Shown here: in pieces, positions 2,213 to 19,271 of the stretch
Position numbering within the stretch: position 1 is the first letter of the stretch
Layout: each line of letters opens with the position of its first letter
Virus record (IMG/VR): IMGVR_UViG_3300025151_000170
Span: 1 to 31,990 of that record
Direction: 5' to 3' (one strand)
From: a virus
Length of the DNA: 31,990 bases
Translations under genes and position numbers: made by a program
The notes under the pieces: generated by a model
Seen by the model: only the letters and a program-made list of their open reading frames with translations
What the model was told of the DNA's origin: nothing
Database searches by the model: none

Positions 2213-2571
2213 AGTTTCTCCAGTTCTTCTTCTAAATCGGGATCCACCTCTAAAGATGGCATCATTCCTATAGGATATTTATTCAAGTAAATCAGTAGAG
2301 TTTTTAGCAAACTCCAATACTCCCTCTCCATCTTGAAAAAAAGCAAGGGAGTTGCTGCTTCACCAAAAACATTATAAAGAATGATGAGATGATTTATAAT
2401 CAAATGAGTCCTTAGTGACCCTCCACGAACATAACGCTTCAAGAGTCTTTTTAGATACTTGAAGCGTTTCATGTCCTCATCAAAATCCTCTCTAGTCACA
2501 CAGTGAGGATTTTCATAATGCTTAATGGCGAACAGAATGTAGTTAGACTCATTCAGTTCGTCAAATTTCAT
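2209..2571 (-). CDS. Conserved phage protein of unknown function (DUF7207-like)
   Basis: This is a 120-residue, mostly helical protein with no signal peptide or zinc motif. Its middle reads FKYLKRLLKRYVRGGSLRTH, followed by LIINHLIILYNVFGEAATPL and an acidic tail (LEVDPDLEEELEKL). I recall the same pattern (small protein, basic helix, then HLIILYNVFG) in many T4-like cyanophages and pelagiphages as a conserved hypothetical gene. Hydrophobic stretches are short and broken by charged residues, so it is probably soluble. It sits directly after the Ig-like structural protein with a TAATG overlap, so it should share the late transcript that starts from the promoter at 3391. Confidence 0.72.
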   Translation of the reverse strand: MKFDELNESNYILFAIKHYENPHCVTREDFDEDMKRFKYLKRLLKRYVRGGSLRTHLIINHLIILYNVFGEAATPLLFFKMEREYWSLLKTLLIYLNKYPIGMMPSLEVDPDLEEELEKL

Positions 2572-3359
2572 TAGCTACCAAATGTCAATGTTGCTACGGC
2601 AGAGATTACTTCAGGAGCACCATTATCAGATGTCACCTTAACACGATACTGGTTGCCATCGTTTGCTGCAGTCTGACCTGTGAGTGCCAGGTTGGTGCTG
2701 GTTGCACCAGCGACATTCGAGAAACGACCAGTGGAGGTGAGTCTCTTCTGCCATTGGAATGCTGCTGTACCAGAGTTGGTAACAGAAGCAACAACAGCGA
2801 AGGTTGCATCACCAGAAGAAGTAGTCTTGTCGGTGTTGTTTGTGCTGAGTGTGATGGTGTTCGCTGCATCTGCTACGAGTGTATCATCAGTGTCGTCACC
2901 TGCATCAGAAGCACTTGCATGTACGAATGCTAAGCACTCTGCCTTGTGACGAGTTGCACCAGATACATCAGTATGAGTGCGATACTGCCACCAACCAGGA
3001 CCAGTGATACCACGGGTTTTATTTGCTGCGATATCAACCTCAGTATTATCTACGAAAAGCAATTCGTAAGAGTTAGTGTCGCCACCCTTGATAACAAACT
3101 CAGCGACTGCACGAGGGGGTGTTCTACGCAGAACACTGGCAGCAGCGACTGAATTACTAGTAGATCCTGCATATACTTTATGCAGTTCAATAGAGGTGGT
3201 TGATGTTACTGTTTTTACGATGTAAGCAACGCCAAGAATATCCAGAACGTCACCAACTTCTACAGAGTCAGCAGCGTTTTTAGTTACTGTTGCGTCATTT
3301 TGTGTGACTGCAATAGTATTGGCGAAAGCCTTCCCGTCAAGTTTTCCGTAGATTGCCAT
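2571..3359 (-). CDS. Virion structural protein with C-terminal Ig-like domain
   Basis: The 262-residue protein is rich in Thr, Ser, Ala, Val and Asn and predicted to be nearly all beta. The N-terminal ~125 residues form one domain (starting MAIYGKLDGKAFANTI, with a GPGWWQYRTHTD motif near 121-132). The C-terminal ~95 residues read as an Ig-like fold: FQWQKR as the core Trp strand, then TAANDGNQYRVKV as the D-x-G-x-x-Y strand. Ig-like domains of this sort decorate phage capsids and tails and help bind carbohydrate or cell surfaces. A T4-type late promoter lies immediately upstream, consistent with a structural role. Whether it belongs to the capsid (Hoc-like) or the tail cannot be told from the sequence. 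Confidence 0.82.
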   Translation of the reverse strand: MAIYGKLDGKAFANTIAVTQNDATVTKNAADSVEVGDVLDILGVAYIVKTVTSTTSIELHKVYAGSTSNSVAAASVLRRTPPRAVAEFVIKGGDTNSYELLFVDNTEVDIAANKTRGITGPGWWQYRTHTDVSGATRHKAECLAFVHASASDAGDDTDDTLVADAANTITLSTNNTDKTTSSGDATFAVVASVTNSGTAAFQWQKRLTSTGRFSNVAGATSTNLALTGQTAANDGNQYRVKVTSDNGAPEVISAVATLTFGS

Positions 3360-4196: not shown

Positions 4197-5789
4197 TCAA
4201 CCCCCGTAGTTGTCGCGTGCTTTAATGTCTGCCATCTTGCTGAAACGCTCTTTCTCTTTTTGACGAGTGATTGCGCTTACAATCTTGCCAGACTTATCCT
4301 GTGCTTTAGAACCTGCCTTGGTAGACATTCCTTTGCTAAGTGCATCGCGACTCAGGTTACCTGCTCTACGATACATTGCAGTTTCTTTTTTCTTGTCGAT
4401 GGGTTTGTAACCCTCTTCAATTACATTCTCGATTTCTTCAATGCTGAAGAGACCAGACTCATAGAGATGTGCAATTCTATCATAGTCTTCACCCAAACGC
4501 TTAGCAAGTTTGTCGCTACCCTTGGATACTACACGAGCAGTCTTACCAACTGCTTTCTTCAGACCTTTCTTAACTGCACCACCGATTCTTCTGAGAAGAC
4601 CAGGACCTTTCTTCTTAGCAGGAGCACTGCTAGAAGATTCCCCGCCACCACCAGAGGAAGAAGAACCGCTGTCAGAACTGCTGCTAGACGAAGTGCCTCT
4701 GGTTTTCGCTAACAGTGCATCCAACTTACCACCTGTACCATCATCATCTTTCTTGGGTGCTTCTTTCTTTTTCTCAGGGCGAGACATTGCTGCTCGCTTC
4801 TGCTTGATTCGTGCTGCTTGGAATTCACCAACTGCCTTACCAGCATTTGAAGCAACAGATTTACCTGCTGCTTTGATACCCTTCTTAGCAGCACTACCTG
4901 CTGCCTTTGCACCTGCCTTGAGTTTAGCACCCGCTGCTTTGGCAGCAGACTTCATACGCTCAACACGGGAGGGACGATTCTTCTTAGCAGCATCCTTAGA
5001 TGACTTGACTGCAGAGTCGTAGTAAGAATCAGATACCTCAGAGAGTAACTCAACTTCTTCAAGTGCTTCACAGATTTCAAGCAGATCATCTTCATCTTCT
5101 GCAAGTTCTACGAGTGCTTCCATGAAGAGATCAATCAGTTCTTCATCGGTTGCCTCATCAATTTCTACCATGTCAGCAATCTCTTCATCACTGAAGTAGA
5201 ATGCTTCTTTGCGAGCTGCACGTCTCTCATCACGCTCTTTCTTTGCACGATCCACTGCCATTTCCATGCCACCTTTGCCGTAACCAGCAAGGATACGACG
5301 ATCCTTTTTACGCTCAGCAGCAGTTCTTTCGGGAGCGGGAGCAGTTCCATCGCGTTGGATGTGAGACTTAGAACCGCTGTACTTACCTTCACCAAGAACC
5401 TCTAAGTTCTTATCGTAATTGGCAAAGTGCTCGTGATGACCTTCTTCAATAATTTCTAATTCTTCGACAGGGACATTCTCAAGGATGACATTACCATCAG
5501 TGATATCGTAGTGAGTTACAGTGCCATCATCAAGCAAGGTATGTTGCTCAGGAATTACACTATACTCTTTACCTTCCTTCTTGACCATCTTGGCACAAAG
5601 GTGGGTCTTCTTACCCGCCGCTTTTGTGACAGTCTTACGACGATTCAGAAGATATGAATCAGTAGAGTCTTTGTCACCATCATTATCAATGTCACCATCT
5701 TCCTTACCAACAGGGTCTAACTTTTTCTTTTCATACATCTGCACTTGTTTCAGTGCCTCTGACATATCGGGAAGTTCGTTATGATACAT
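4197..5789 (-). CDS. Large charged protein with EF-hand/dockerin-like loop, histone-like and Ser-rich regions; candidate prohead core protein
   Basis: The 530-residue protein is modular. Residues 23-50 contain DPVGKEDGDIDNDGDKDSTD, a calcium-loop pattern like EF-hand or dockerin. Residues ~80-135 form a small beta domain. Residues 200-252 are very acidic. Residues 278-321 are Lys/Ala-rich like histone H1 (AAKAAGAKLKAGAKAAG). A Ser/Gly linker follows (367-388) and a conserved basic C-terminus with VIEEGYKPIDKKKE (456-469). Several sites fit the T4 prohead protease consensus (L/I)xE before G/S: after residues 116, 134, 444 and 459. I recall proteins of this type in many cyanophages annotated as structural or hypothetical. 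A role as scaffold or internal protein is inference. A GATAAATA late-like element lies 25 nt upstream. Confidence 0.75.
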   Translation of the reverse strand: MYHNELPDMSEALKQVQMYEKKKLDPVGKEDGDIDNDGDKDSTDSYLLNRRKTVTKAAGKKTHLCAKMVKKEGKEYSVIPEQHTLLDDGTVTHYDITDGNVILENVPVEELEIIEEGHHEHFANYDKNLEVLGEGKYSGSKSHIQRDGTAPAPERTAAERKKDRRILAGYGKGGMEMAVDRAKKERDERRAARKEAFYFSDEEIADMVEIDEATDEELIDLFMEALVELAEDEDDLLEICEALEEVELLSEVSDSYYDSAVKSSKDAAKKNRPSRVERMKSAAKAAGAKLKAGAKAAGSAAKKGIKAAGKSVASNAGKAVGEFQAARIKQKRAAMSRPEKKKEAPKKDDDGTGGKLDALLAKTRGTSSSSSSDSGSSSSGGGGESSSSAPAKKKGPGLLRRIGGAVKKGLKKAVGKTARVVSKGSDKLAKRLGEDYDRIAHLYESGLFSIEEIENVIEEGYKPIDKKKETAMYRRAGNLSRDALSKGMSTKAGSKAQDKSGKIVSAITRQKEKERFSKMADIKARDNYGG

Positions 5790-5790
5790 T

Positions 5791-6951
5791 TTACTTAGTG
5801 TCCTTGTCCTTTTTATTTATCTTGCGAATGAATTCACCTGGGGTGAGTTTTCTCATATAGTTAGCAAGTTTATCTGTACCCATCTCACCAGCAGGTGTAA
5901 AATCAAAATATTTAATGTCATTACGCTCTACCAAATCCTTTAACCAGGAGCGGTAAATACCATCACGCTCATCAATAGTGATGATATAATTGCTACCACG
6001 ACTAACAACTTTACTAACGATCCCTGTGTTGATATTTTCAACAAACGTTCCCACCTCAAATAAGTCTTGATTGAAATACGCCTCGCGAAGACCTTGGGGA
6101 TCTAACTTAGGAGCAATCTCATGAAGTTCATAAGATGCTTCTGCAAAATCATCAAACTCTTCTACTTGCATTGCCTGGCGTAATGTCAAGTATAACTTCT
6201 CAGTACCTTCTTTACCAAGACCTTTTGACATTCCTTTACTAAAGGTGTCAAAGTCATCCTCTGCTGCTGCTTTACGAAGTTTAGATGCAGACATACCTTC
6301 CACACCTTCAGCATCAGGGTCGCGACCACCAGCACTTACCACTTTGATTTCGTCAAAGGTATATAAGTCCCCATTGTATTTTTGTGCGAGTGAATTAAAC
6401 TCAGATACCCTGTCACCTCCCACCACAATATTAACTGAACTATACCCGTCATTATCGATGGCACTAAGAACATCAAAGATAGTACGCATGTCGGGACTAT
6501 CAACAATCGCATTGGCATGATCTGGATATGCTTGCCGCATATATTTAATTTTGGTCCCCGCATCAAGGGGGTTCTTCTTAGGATCCTCCGACCTTGAGGG
6601 GTATATTCTATACTCTCCTCCACTTGTTTTTGCCTCTCTTGCTACTTTGTCTAGAAGCCTTTCGTGACCAATAGTAGGTGGATTAAATCTTCCAAATGTA
6701 ATAGATATTGTACCTTGATCGACCGCACCCGAGCCATCTCCAGTTTCTTCTTCTCCATTCTGTTGAGTTGGCGTAGTATCTGGATTCTTGGGGTCAATCT
6801 TTATAAGTTTTCCGTCCTTAGACATATGAGTTACGTTGCCCGAAGCGTCGGCATAACGTCCGTAACCAATATGTTTAAGTTTTAAAGTCTTTGCAGCCTT
6901 TGCTGCTTGTGATTTTTCGGCTTCAATTAGGAAAGCACTGAACTTCTTCAT
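5791..6951 (-). CDS. Nucleotidyltransferase (HxGH/NMNAT-like) with capsid-targeting-like N-terminus
   Basis: The 386-residue protein carries a nucleotidylyltransferase domain at about residues 80-240. FGRFNPPTIGH (86-96) is the T/HxGH nucleotide-binding loop, VVGGDR (176-181) a core strand, and MSASKLRKA (220-228) the ISSTxxR-type motif. Members of this superfamily (NMN adenylyltransferase, pantetheine-phosphate adenylyltransferase, cytidylyltransferases) transfer AMP or CMP to a phosphate. The N-terminus MKKFSAFLIEA resembles the capsid-targeting sequence of T4 internal proteins, with LIE before A11 matching the gp21 protease consensus. Residues ~12-80 are a charged linker and the C-terminal ~110 residues are unassigned. 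The substrate cannot be named; NMN is a guess from similarity. It sits one base upstream of the candidate core protein. Confidence 0.82.
   Translation of the reverse strand: MKKFSAFLIEAEKSQAAKAAKTLKLKHIGYGRYADASGNVTHMSKDGKLIKIDPKNPDTTPTQQNGEEETGDGSGAVDQGTISITFGRFNPPTIGHERLLDKVAREAKTSGGEYRIYPSRSEDPKKNPLDAGTKIKYMRQAYPDHANAIVDSPDMRTIFDVLSAIDNDGYSSVNIVVGGDRVSEFNSLAQKYNGDLYTFDEIKVVSAGGRDPDAEGVEGMSASKLRKAAAEDDFDTFSKGMSKGLGKEGTEKLYLTLRQAMQVEEFDDFAEASYELHEIAPKLDPQGLREAYFNQDLFEVGTFVENINTGIVSKVVSRGSNYIITIDERDGIYRSWLKDLVERNDIKYFDFTPAGEMGTDKLANYMRKLTPGEFIRKINKKDKDTK
5814..5821 (-). promoter_or_regulatory. Possible late promoter, GATAAATA variant
   Basis: The minus strand reads GATAAATAAA, one mismatch from TATAAATA, 25 nt upstream of the 530-aa gene start and inside the 3' end of the nucleotidyltransferase gene. 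An AAGGA purine stretch follows before the ATG. The spacing resembles the good late promoter at 3391, but the same octamer also occurs inside other genes (7176, 13862), so it is weak evidence. Confidence 0.3.
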
Positions 6952-6952
6952 T

Positions 6953-7936
6953 CTACCAATTTTTACTAAGATTAAAGTTTGCTTTACTAAAGGTCAGTCG
7001 ATCTACTATCTTTACTGGGTTGTTGGAAACAGTAACAAACCCCTCATGGCGAGTAGGTTGTCCATCGATGTAGCATTCAACTGTTCCATTAACAACGATA
7101 GCATCGAGTAGACGCTGTTTCAGTTGGAAGATTTTATGCCACACCATAAAGGTCTGAACATTAACCTCTTGCTTATATTTATCATCCATCGCAGCGTACA
7201 TTACTGCGCCGTTGGGGATGCTACCAGCACGAATGAATTTATTGACAAAAGTCCGCAAGTATAAACGAGTGTACTTATCCTTAGAAACCTTGCACTTTGG
7301 AATCAAAGCAAGGATTTCTGCTACAAGTTTAGGAGCAAACCATATACCAACAGAAGCATCTGTAGTATCAATGAAATGTGTTCCATTTACAGACGGTAGC
7401 GTAGCACCAACAGTTGCTTCTGCATTAGGTGAAACCTCATTATAAAAAGTATGAGGTGCTAGAATAATATCCCTATTAATAGGAGTAGGAAACCTGTAAG
7501 TAATAGTATTGGGAGTATATTGCCTGCCGCCACCGACACCAATAAAGTCAGCTTGAACAATACGATCAGTACGGGGAAGATGATATAGACAAAGACGAAG
7601 TATATCAGCAACCCGCCCAGTATGGTTTTGATCAATGTCTTCATTGGTGTAGTTGATCTTAACGAGTTTTTTGTTGAATACAGACTTGGTGCCAACGAAG
7701 AACTTACCGTTCTCTGGATTGGTGCCAAACACGATAGCAGGGGCACCGTCCCACTTGACGCTGACCTTACGGCACAGAACCATCTCTTTAAGTGCAGCAA
7801 GTGCTGCCCTACGACCGTCAAAGATAAAATCTTCTGGGTGCTCAAGGTGGGTATTGGGCAAAGTGTCCTCTGTCTCTATACCGTTATTATAGCATGATAA
7901 AGTGGAGTCACACATGGTCTTGTGCCAGTTCCTCAA
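6953..7936 (-). CDS. DUF6267-like protein with DNA/RNA-ligase-type nucleotidyltransferase motifs
   Basis: The 327-residue protein contains SVKWDGAPAIVFG (59-71), which matches motif I (KxDG) of covalent nucleotidyltransferases such as DNA and RNA ligases, with K61 as the possible adenylated lysine. Further matches in the right order are FFVGTKS (79-85, motif III-like), VQADFIG (128-134, motif IIIa-like), HEGFVTV (297-303, motif IV-like) and VKIVDR (308-313, motif V-like). I recall this family from cyanophages as DUF6267; the ligase relation is my inference. No OB-fold or zinc finger is evident. It is joined by ATGA to the 473-aa gene and lies next to a second, unrelated nucleotidyltransferase. 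The first ~25 codons contain a TGCTATAAT sequence, so a later non-ATG start is conceivable. Confidence 0.75.
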   Translation of the reverse strand: MRNWHKTMCDSTLSCYNNGIETEDTLPNTHLEHPEDFIFDGRRAALAALKEMVLCRKVSVKWDGAPAIVFGTNPENGKFFVGTKSVFNKKLVKINYTNEDIDQNHTGRVADILRLCLYHLPRTDRIVQADFIGVGGGRQYTPNTITYRFPTPINRDIILAPHTFYNEVSPNAEATVGATLPSVNGTHFIDTTDASVGIWFAPKLVAEILALIPKCKVSKDKYTRLYLRTFVNKFIRAGSIPNGAVMYAAMDDKYKQEVNVQTFMVWHKIFQLKQRLLDAIVVNGTVECYIDGQPTRHEGFVTVSNNPVKIVDRLTFSKANFNLSKNW

Positions 7937-9354
7937 CTGAGTTTATAGTAGACGGAAGAGTAATCTGATTGTGATCCAGCATACAAATACAATGCTTTCA
8001 TAGCATCATCTGCTCTACCATTCAACCCCTTTAAATAATTTAAGAAGCGAAGACCAGACAATTTACTATACTTCCAAGCCTGAGGACGTAAATTAATTAT
8101 TTGCATTGCTTTATCTCTATCTGTTGGAAGATTTGCAGCATTATATTTTTTCAACAGATTGTATATCTCTTCATTGATTGCTTTTTTTACACTAGCAGGT
8201 GCATTCGAACGACACTTATTCCAATCTGCCTCTTTAGGAATACCTTTGAAACCTGCTTGTGTTAATACCTTTGCTACAACAGCACCTTGAATTTTTCCTT
8301 GGGCAGCAAATTGACCTTTAAGTTCTAACTTCCAGTCACCTTTGTTTTCTCCACCAAAGTTTCTTGCCTGAAACTTTTGAAAGTTACCAGAACCATAGTA
8401 ATAGTAAACATCCATTGGATATTGTTTATCACCCCTTCTTTTGTTATCGAATGTCAGATCATAGTGATGAAAAGATGCATTTAGTGATGCCTTTCTTTGA
8501 GCAGGTGTTTCGGCATTTAAAAGTCTTGCACTTGGACTGCCTCCCATTTTCTTCAAAGAAAATCCAACTAAATCTTTAGCAGCATTTCTCGCTTGAAGAT
8601 ACGAATTCAATTCAGAAATCGTGCCAATTGCTTTAAGGTCTGCAGCAATCTGTGCTTTCATACTTTTTCTAACTGCCCAGATGTCAGCAGGATTCCACTT
8701 ATCTTCAGATGCAAGATTAGTTTGAGATTTTACTCTCTTAAATGCTTTAGCAATTGCACCATCATCAATGACTTTATCTCCTCTTACAAACTCATATGTT
8801 CCTGCAGAACCACCAAGAGTTCTCTTTATTAATGCACCACCCTTCATAGAAGAGTTCTTCCACTCAGAATCGAGTGCAAGAATTTGTTCAATATTTACTC
8901 CTGGTGTATCACTAAATGCTTGACCACATTTTAAATCTGCTTCCGATACAACTCTCAAATCTTTGCATTCATATATCATAGCAGCATACAAACACTGTGC
9001 AGACTCAACGATCTTCGTGACATCTGCGCCAGCACCAGAACCTCCAGAGGGTGGTTTAATTTGTAATCGAATTACCTTTTTATTATCGGTGTTTGCAATA
9101 TAAACATCAATCTGATTATCTCCAGAAAGAACGTCTACACCTTCGTTTTGTAGTGCCTCAGTAATTTTTTTAGTTGCTCTACTTCTCTCTGCCTGAGAAA
9201 CATAAACCTTTAAAAGAATTTGAACCTTTTTTCGGGATTCGGCATCTTCTATATTCTTTACATCAAAAGAGTAGTATGCATAATCTTCGCCGCCAAGTGC
9301 ATCCATTACCTTTCTAAAGGTAGCAGTATTTGCTTCAGGAACTTTAAGTGTCAT
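7933..9354 (-). CDS. Conserved phage protein of unknown function; possible nuclease-like fold
   Basis: The 473-residue soluble protein has no signal peptide. Two features stand out. Residues 83-100 read D-V-Y-I...RLQIK, resembling a PD-(D/E)xK-type core with Gln in place of the usual Glu, followed by a Gly/Ser loop (PPSGGSGAGA) and a helix. Residues 219-229 read KWNPADIWAVR, a conserved-looking motif. The C-terminal half (about 290-473) contains a Tyr-rich segment (MDVYYYYGSGNFQKFQARNF) and a basic region. I do not recognise the family, and the nuclease idea is low confidence. It is linked by ATGA to the ligase-like gene downstream. Just upstream the minus strand reads TTAATAAATAG, an imperfect late-promoter-like sequence. 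Confidence 0.7.
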   Translation of the reverse strand: MTLKVPEANTATFRKVMDALGGEDYAYYSFDVKNIEDAESRKKVQILLKVYVSQAERSRATKKITEALQNEGVDVLSGDNQIDVYIANTDNKKVIRLQIKPPSGGSGAGADVTKIVESAQCLYAAMIYECKDLRVVSEADLKCGQAFSDTPGVNIEQILALDSEWKNSSMKGGALIKRTLGGSAGTYEFVRGDKVIDDGAIAKAFKRVKSQTNLASEDKWNPADIWAVRKSMKAQIAADLKAIGTISELNSYLQARNAAKDLVGFSLKKMGGSPSARLLNAETPAQRKASLNASFHHYDLTFDNKRRGDKQYPMDVYYYYGSGNFQKFQARNFGGENKGDWKLELKGQFAAQGKIQGAVVAKVLTQAGFKGIPKEADWNKCRSNAPASVKKAINEEIYNLLKKYNAANLPTDRDKAMQIINLRPQAWKYSKLSGLRFLNYLKGLNGRADDAMKALYLYAGSQSDYSSVYYKLS

Positions 9355-18838: not shown

Positions 18839-19271
18839 AGACTTTGAGTTTCTGGTGGTCAGGAATAATTCTTCTCAATTCTACCACAAGCAATCCATTG
18901 CTGAAAGTAACTGTGCCGATCTCGACATCATCCGACAAGTTGAAACCTCTAGCGAAGGTACGAGTGGAAATACCTCTGTGCATGTATTCCTCTTCCCCTT
19001 TAGTCTTCGCTGCCTTAGACCTGATTAGGAGGACGTTACTCTCTGTAGAGACTTCAAACTCATCCTTCGACCAACCAGCAAGTGCTACTTCAATCCTCCA
19101 TTTGACATTTGATTCCTGCACTAAGTTATATGGAGGATATGATTCATTAACACCACCCATTCCATATGAGTGGAGTCTGTAAAAAACGTCATCTAGTCCG
19201 ACACCATATCTTTCTGCAGCGTCTACGATGGCACCAAGATCTTTCGTGGTGAACTTCTTAAGTCCAGTCAT
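18789..19271 (-). CDS. hsp20: Small heat shock protein (Hsp20/alpha-crystallin family)
   Basis: The 160-residue protein shows the alpha-crystallin domain at about residues 50-145: SNVKWRIEVALAGWSKDEFE, VLLIRSKAAKTKGEEEYMHR, ISTRTFARGFNLSDDVEIG and SNGLLVVELRR, then a KLKVYDI segment. Small heat shock proteins hold unfolding proteins in soluble complexes without ATP. Phage copies are common in cyanomyoviruses and are thought to help fold or assemble virion proteins, or protect photosystems, though this is not shown. The ATG has a strong AAAGGAG site. It is the first minus-strand gene next to the divergent intergenic region at 19272-19421. Confidence 0.92.
   Translation of the reverse strand: MTGLKKFTTKDLGAIVDAAERYGVGLDDVFYRLHSYGMGGVNESYPPYNLVQESNVKWRIEVALAGWSKDEFEVSTESNVLLIRSKAAKTKGEEEYMHRGISTRTFARGFNLSDDVEIGTVTFSNGLLVVELRRIIPDHQKLKVYDIQDTPSVESSSDSV

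Follow-up and report, generated by a model that had tools for sequence, protein, structure and literature searches.

A predicted T4-type capsid targeting sequence on an NMNAT-like enzyme of marine T4-like cyanophages

Does an enzyme that begins like an internal head protein of phage T4 travel inside the cyanophage capsid, and if so, what might it do in the cell that it enters? The question is raised by a 31,990-base IMG/VR fragment of a T4-like cyanophage (hereafter the window, meaning the whole stretch of DNA analysed), whose nearest annotated relatives are S-CAM22, S-CAM8, S-SM1 and Syn30, in line with the cyanophage origin assumed in a sequence-only reading of the same DNA. The open reading frame and motif positions of that reading were also confirmed (MKKFSAFLIEA at residues 1-11, TIGH at 93-96 and SASKLRKA at 221-228, all on the minus strand). 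With reasonable confidence, we regard the enzyme as T4-tagged cargo that is packed into the head, cut after E10, injected with the DNA and active early as an NMNAT-type enzyme. The enzyme family and its presence in virions were already known; what our literature search did not find described is the leader. The features of the locus are as follows, with virion assignments taken from published proteomes.

5791..6951, minus strand: NMNAT-like nucleotidyltransferase of the HIGH superfamily, 386 amino acids, ATG start; orthologue of S-SM1 SSM1_190 (T4-GC190), assigned with an AlphaFold model and PDB comparison
6919..6951, minus strand: leader MKKFSAFLIE/A (slash, predicted cut), residues 1-11, a putative T4-type capsid targeting sequence by position entropies, T4 determinants (PMC9026906) and a T4 control
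Between bases 6922 and 6921, minus strand: predicted leader cleavage at the E10/A11 junction
6796..6918, minus strand: GYG/GHG mini-domain, about residues 12-52, found by HMM search and modelled as a helix and four short strands
6172..6711, minus strand: catalytic adenylyltransferase domain, residues 81-260, pLDDT mostly >90
6664..6675, minus strand: TIGH, residues 93-96 ([HT]xGH motif); T93, G95 and H96 invariant in 42 relatives
6274..6291, minus strand: SASKLR, residues 221-226, second superfamily motif; S221, A222, S223 and R226 invariant in the 42 relatives
5917..6054, minus strand: small C-terminal beta domain, about residues 300-345, matching phrog_4808 and present in the model
6953..7936, minus strand: immediate upstream neighbour, a DUF6267 protein predicted to be a nucleotidyltransferase of ligase fold (K61xDG; E298-G299), without the leader in this phage
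7933..9354, minus strand: phrog_1462 protein; relative SSCSM1_90 marked as a virion protein
4197..5789, minus strand: phrog_764 protein with an Ala/Lys-rich stretch; positional counterparts SSZBM1_139 and SSCSM1_92 detected in virions
2571..3359, minus strand: phrog_613 head protein; relative SSZBM1_136 detected in virions

Two neighbours call for comment in their own right. The 4197-5789 product is named a cytidyltransferase by PHROGs and RefSeq; Pfam finds no such domain in it, and its Ala/Lys-rich stretch is histone H1-like. The phrog_1462 protein matched nothing in Pfam, and a D...QxK resemblance to PD-(D/E)XK nucleases, seen by eye, was not confirmed.

Conservation of the leader in the T4 register

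Mutagenesis of T4 IPIII assigns targeting to residues 4 and 7 and processing to residues 8 and 10; the prohead protease gp21 cuts after L/I-x-E, and Asp at IPIII residue 10 stops cutting, not targeting (PMC9026906). Relatives of the enzyme were found by tblastn in 530 phage records, mostly of cyanophages. All 80 relatives retrieved by whole-protein search begin MK[KS]FSAFLxEA; because these are all close, distant relatives were fetched by catalytic-domain patterns only. The leader was present in 76 of 80 relatives so obtained, equivalent to 76 of the 78 with a readable start, and the leader conservation for which an alignment of homologues had been proposed as a check was thereby established. 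Of the other four, two are truncated at a contig boundary, and the remaining two start MKKFSEFLGS, in which F4, F7 and L8 persist but E10 is lost. Across 72 unique starts, entropies were 0.11 bits at F4, 0.00 at F7, 0.18 at E10 and 0.67 at A11, and 2.3-3.3 bits at the free positions 5, 6, 9, 12 and 13; F4 was found in 71/72, F7 in 72/72, L/I8 in 67/72 and E10 in 70/72. The suggested likeness to T4 internal-protein targeting peptides has therefore gained in precision, since the conserved positions are those of IPIII targeting (4 and 7) and processing (8 and 10), and at the level of sequence the leader and the IPIII determinants agree position by position. The leader persists in relatives without the mini-domain (L266, L273, L297). 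Our literature search found no description of it in the cyanophage enzyme, and nothing linking capsid targeting with cyanophages beyond a review of T4 head research.

The predicted cut was compared with prohead processing in relatives. E10/A11 obeys the protease rule, as had been noted from the fit of LIE/A to the gp21 consensus, and resembles sites in the major capsid proteins of S-CREM2 and S-SZBM1 (LLTE/A, ILTE/A), which lie near residue 55, close to the T4 gp23 cut distance. Because of these capsid sites, and of the many such sites in the scaffolds of the same two phages, cleavage of the leader after E10 is likely but unproven.

When every start in the window was scanned, the strict leader pattern matched this gene alone. 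With an aromatic residue at position 4, the pattern found three places in the T4 genome, namely ipII, ipIII and 61.1, which served as the positive control. Eight cluster-B records, some whole and some partial, and Syn9 each had one match in this gene, and the reversed pattern gave zero matches there; in whole S-SM1, S-CAM22, other cluster-B genomes and Syn9 the enzyme gene was the only match, and one 75 kb fragment has a second, unrelated one. A bare [LIF]xE[AGS] site near the start was rejected as a marker because it was uninformative (P = 0.34), so the aromatic residues are needed, and a one-residue-shorter pattern, with reverse-control matches in RaK2, was unreliable alone. The leader regular expression was composed after part of the data had been seen. 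As a separate observation, T4 gene 61.1 (18966-19130, L323), beside primase gene 61, starts MKTFKEFIKE.

An NMNAT-like fold and its ligase-like neighbour

Pfam assigns residues 84-226 to CTP_transf_like (6e-7), and PHROGs likewise calls the protein a cytidyltransferase. The AlphaFold model, confident over residues 81-260, gave best Foldseek matches to NadD, NMNAT and PPAT, and VIA-align left PPAT and NadD tied (Z 13-14, 2.6-3.2 Å, about 150 residues). With [HT]xGH, SxSxxR and a Rossmann-like fold, the protein belongs among the HIGH-superfamily adenylyl/cytidylyltransferases, and the proposed NMNAT/cytidylyltransferase membership is upheld by the model and by both motifs being invariant in 42 relatives. 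NadR, NadD and NadM scored best of the subfamily profiles, though below their curated cut-offs: the best E values among the 42 relatives were 3e-7 for NadR and 2e-4 for NadD, none of the 42 reached the NadR, NadM or NadD cut-off, and the window protein fell far below all. A PDB sequence search returned nothing useful for the enzyme or for DUF6267. We favour an NMNAT-type reaction and would name the substrate only tentatively. NadV (NAPRTase, PF04095), which would be the NMN-making partner, was found in 0 of 10 related cyanophages, while the same search detected it in 6 of the 14 genomes used as controls; the window represents just part of its genome. Given this negative result, a role in countering NAD-depleting defence is considered only possible; PADLOC reported nothing for the cassette.

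The alternative that survives best is compatible with packaging and concerns the substrate: together with DUF6267, the packaged enzyme would act on RNA or another phosphate, for example in repair of cut tRNA, and not on NAD. Where the two genes share a strand, DUF6267 is the immediate upstream neighbour in 99 of 100 pairs; it is present in 10/10 cyanophages, and in S-PM2 (L300:1273-3052) it is split by a frame change, its C-terminal half being fused to a leaderless enzyme (p138/p139). Its model (pLDDT 84) aligns best with RNA ligases (VIA, Z about 8), and the best 50 VIA matches are all RNA or DNA ligases; K61xDG and E298-G299 are invariant, and KxDG motif I, EGxV motif IV, a downstream lysine and the ligase fold are those of covalent nucleotidyltransferases and ligases. 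Foldseek alone found no significant match for DUF6267 (best E 0.095), and our literature search found no paper naming the family; on the strength of the model, we predict a ligase-fold nucleotidyltransferase. The lack of NadV in the 10 cyanophages is also consistent with an RNA substrate. However, joint action is weakened by the two genes lying far apart in S-CREM2, S-SCSM1, P-SSM2 and S-SSM7, S-CREM2 gp87 is missing from the virion list, and the enzyme's best subfamily scores are NadR/NadD-like. A substrate of RNA or another phosphate is a credible alternative that we nonetheless think unlikely. In three other records (L183, L112, L178), a DUF6267-like protein itself carries an MKxFxxFLxEA leader, with no such enzyme in the sequenced stretch.

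Virion detections and the leader as a tag

The window enzyme is 79% identical to S-SM1 SSM1_190, labelled T4-GC190. Sullivan et al. 2010 (PMC3037559) described T4-GC190 as a cyanophage core protein and a "putative citidylyltransferase"; they detected it in purified S-SM1 virions and remarked that it had not been detected in those of S-PM2. Relatives are reported from virions of S-SZBM1 (PMC9146016), S-SCSM1 (PMC9602691) and S-CREM2 (PMC10665884). An NMNAT-like protein was therefore already known from cyanophage virions, contrary to what the sequence-only reading had supposed, such findings having been published several times since 2010. The proteins listed there (SSM1_190, S-SZBM1_140, SSCSM1_91 and S-CREM2 gp154) all bear the leader. 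The detections come from mass spectrometry of whole virions, which does not resolve location inside the particle, and the authors of the S-SCSM1 (PMC9602691) and S-CREM2 (PMC10665884) studies could not exclude carry-over through CsCl purification. The enzyme is probably carried in the virus particle. The capsid targeting proposed at the outset is strongly supported by the IPIII register match, by the recovery of ipII and ipIII with the same pattern and by the leader-bearing orthologues in purified virions, so that packaging by a putative T4-type address tag is well supported.

The leader also marks other virion proteins. All five annotated strict-leader proteins of S-CREM2 are virion proteins (P = 6e-4, indicative, the pattern being post hoc): SAM lyase gp6 (Pfam S-AdoMet_lyase, 2e-19), kinase-like gp14 (Pkinase, 1e-5, below cut-off), gp13, gp136 and cytidylyltransferase gp154. 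With a narrower pattern, 6 of 8 leader genes in three genomes with virion mass spectrometry encode virion proteins (P = 8e-4, indicative; the S-SCSM1 gene number, 287, was estimated from 293 annotated features), and without the enzyme family the figure is 3/5 (P = 0.054, suggestive only). These P values are indicative because the pattern was composed after some starts had been seen. The two leader genes missed in the virion lists belong to one 105-residue family (SSZBM1_191, SSCSM1_30). That family (L307; L089:32311-32628), with leaders MKSFKSFLSES and MKTFKQFMSES, sits amid virion genes near terminase.

Sharing extends beyond the leader. The Cas9-like gp12 of S-CREM2 has RFASFMAEA slightly inside its annotated start, and the GYG/GHG mini-domain (~40 residues) occurs in the S-CREM2 virion proteins (L085:7704-12846) gp14, in two copies, and gp12, with whole-protein HMM E values of 1e-10 or better; tblastn with leader plus mini-domain returned the enzyme family only, among the matches listed, and the wider sharing surfaced only by HMM. 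A leader-only scan of the collection gave at least 98 open reading frames, at least 67 of the enzyme family and at least 3 DUF6267-like, and by eye singletons among the matches listed resemble HAD, HNH and HEXXH enzymes. Because the tag is found on other cargo in related phages, it would serve as a general address label. We lean slightly towards a broader proposal, that marine T4-like phages use this leader for a whole set of injected enzymes, with NMNAT-like proteins, a core cyanophage function, as the commonest cargo, alongside SAM lyase, kinase-like, Cas9-like, DUF6267 ligase-fold, HAD-, HNH- and peptidase-like members.

A second alternative holds that the leader is a prohead-core docking peptide on a protein serving head assembly, with the enzyme fold incidental or inactive and injection irrelevant. 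IPIII mutants slow head assembly (PMC9026906), and genes adjoining the enzyme have relatives detected in virions. At least four leader-bearing relatives with damaged or missing catalytic motifs (L206, L118, L187 and L107, with L138 as a further case) suggest that some role may not need catalysis; these relatives keep leader and mini-domain, L107 having lost the whole enzyme domain. Against this, 58 of the 67 leader-bearing family members among the matches listed retain the catalytic motifs, several exceptions being merely cut at contig ends, and a SAM lyase and a kinase-like protein carry the same leader, which fits delivery better than building. We consider a purely architectural role improbable. 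Weaker still is the proposal of an ordinary metabolic enzyme, late and abundant, that contaminates particles and whose leader is an amphipathic helix of other use: the proteome authors themselves raise carry-over and the peptide counts are low (2 in S-SZBM1, 3 in S-CREM2), but independent detection in at least four phages, conservation that follows T4 targeting and cleavage positions and is not helix-like (5, 6, 9 and 12 are free), and leaderless relatives, whose existence means that the fold does not depend on the leader, make it very improbable.

Homologues lacking the leader had been named as grounds for doubt. They exist in S-PM2, S-RSM4, HTVC008M and the jumbo phage RaK2, yet all have other architectures, and the fused S-PM2p139 was not detected in S-PM2 virions. 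This absence agrees with the missing leader; seven structural proteins were missed there as well, so the non-detection of the enzyme may reflect poor sensitivity.

Under the cargo reading that we prefer, the first ten residues would act as the capsid targeting sequence. By analogy with T4, F4 and F7 would dock the protein onto the prohead core during head assembly, and the prohead protease would cut after E10, leaving a 376-residue enzyme in the head. The enzyme may be delivered with the DNA at infection and, as fold and motifs suggest, would work immediately in the cell as an ATP-using NMNAT-type adenylyltransferase that produces NAD or a related dinucleotide before phage gene expression begins.

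Relation to known packaged proteins and enzymes

The cyanophage virion papers left cargo versus contamination undecided; an exact T4-register signal answers that question in principle. If injection occurs, an NAD-type enzyme would be placed in the cell ahead of any phage gene expression. The tag may allow the injected proteins of ocean T4-like phages to be listed from sequence alone, and if the general-tag proposal is true, delivered proteins would become readable even for uncultured phages.

DUF6267 shares with ATP-dependent RNA ligases (T4 Rnl1, Naegleria RNA ligase) its predicted fold, KxDG and EG, and differs in its about 10% identity and a large helical insertion. The enzyme itself has the fold and the [HT]xGH and SxSxxR motifs of NadR, NadM, NadD and CoaD (PPAT), whereas its identity to them is about 10-20%, it scores below every subfamily cut-off, and a NadV partner was not found in the 10 cyanophages. 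The window protein is an orthologue of the "cytidylyltransferase/NMNAT" of cyanophage virions (T4-GC190; S-SM1, S-SZBM1, S-SCSM1, S-CREM2), whose reports, in their accessible portions, mention neither leader nor packaging mechanism. The comparison with T4 Alt, drawn in the sequence-only reading, stands in part: both would be head-packaged, gp21-cut enzymes and, should NMN be the substrate here, both would belong to NAD metabolism. The folds are unrelated, however, the Alt propeptide has 7 residues, and Alt uses NAD, whereas the cyanophage enzyme might make it. The closer model is T4 IPII/IPIII (MKTYQEFIAE/A), which matches in leader length, register, aromatic residue 4, F7, L/I8, E10 and A11. 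In contrast to the small basic proteins of T4, the cyanophage cargo would be a 376-residue enzyme, its gene lies between replication genes and its cleavage is predicted.
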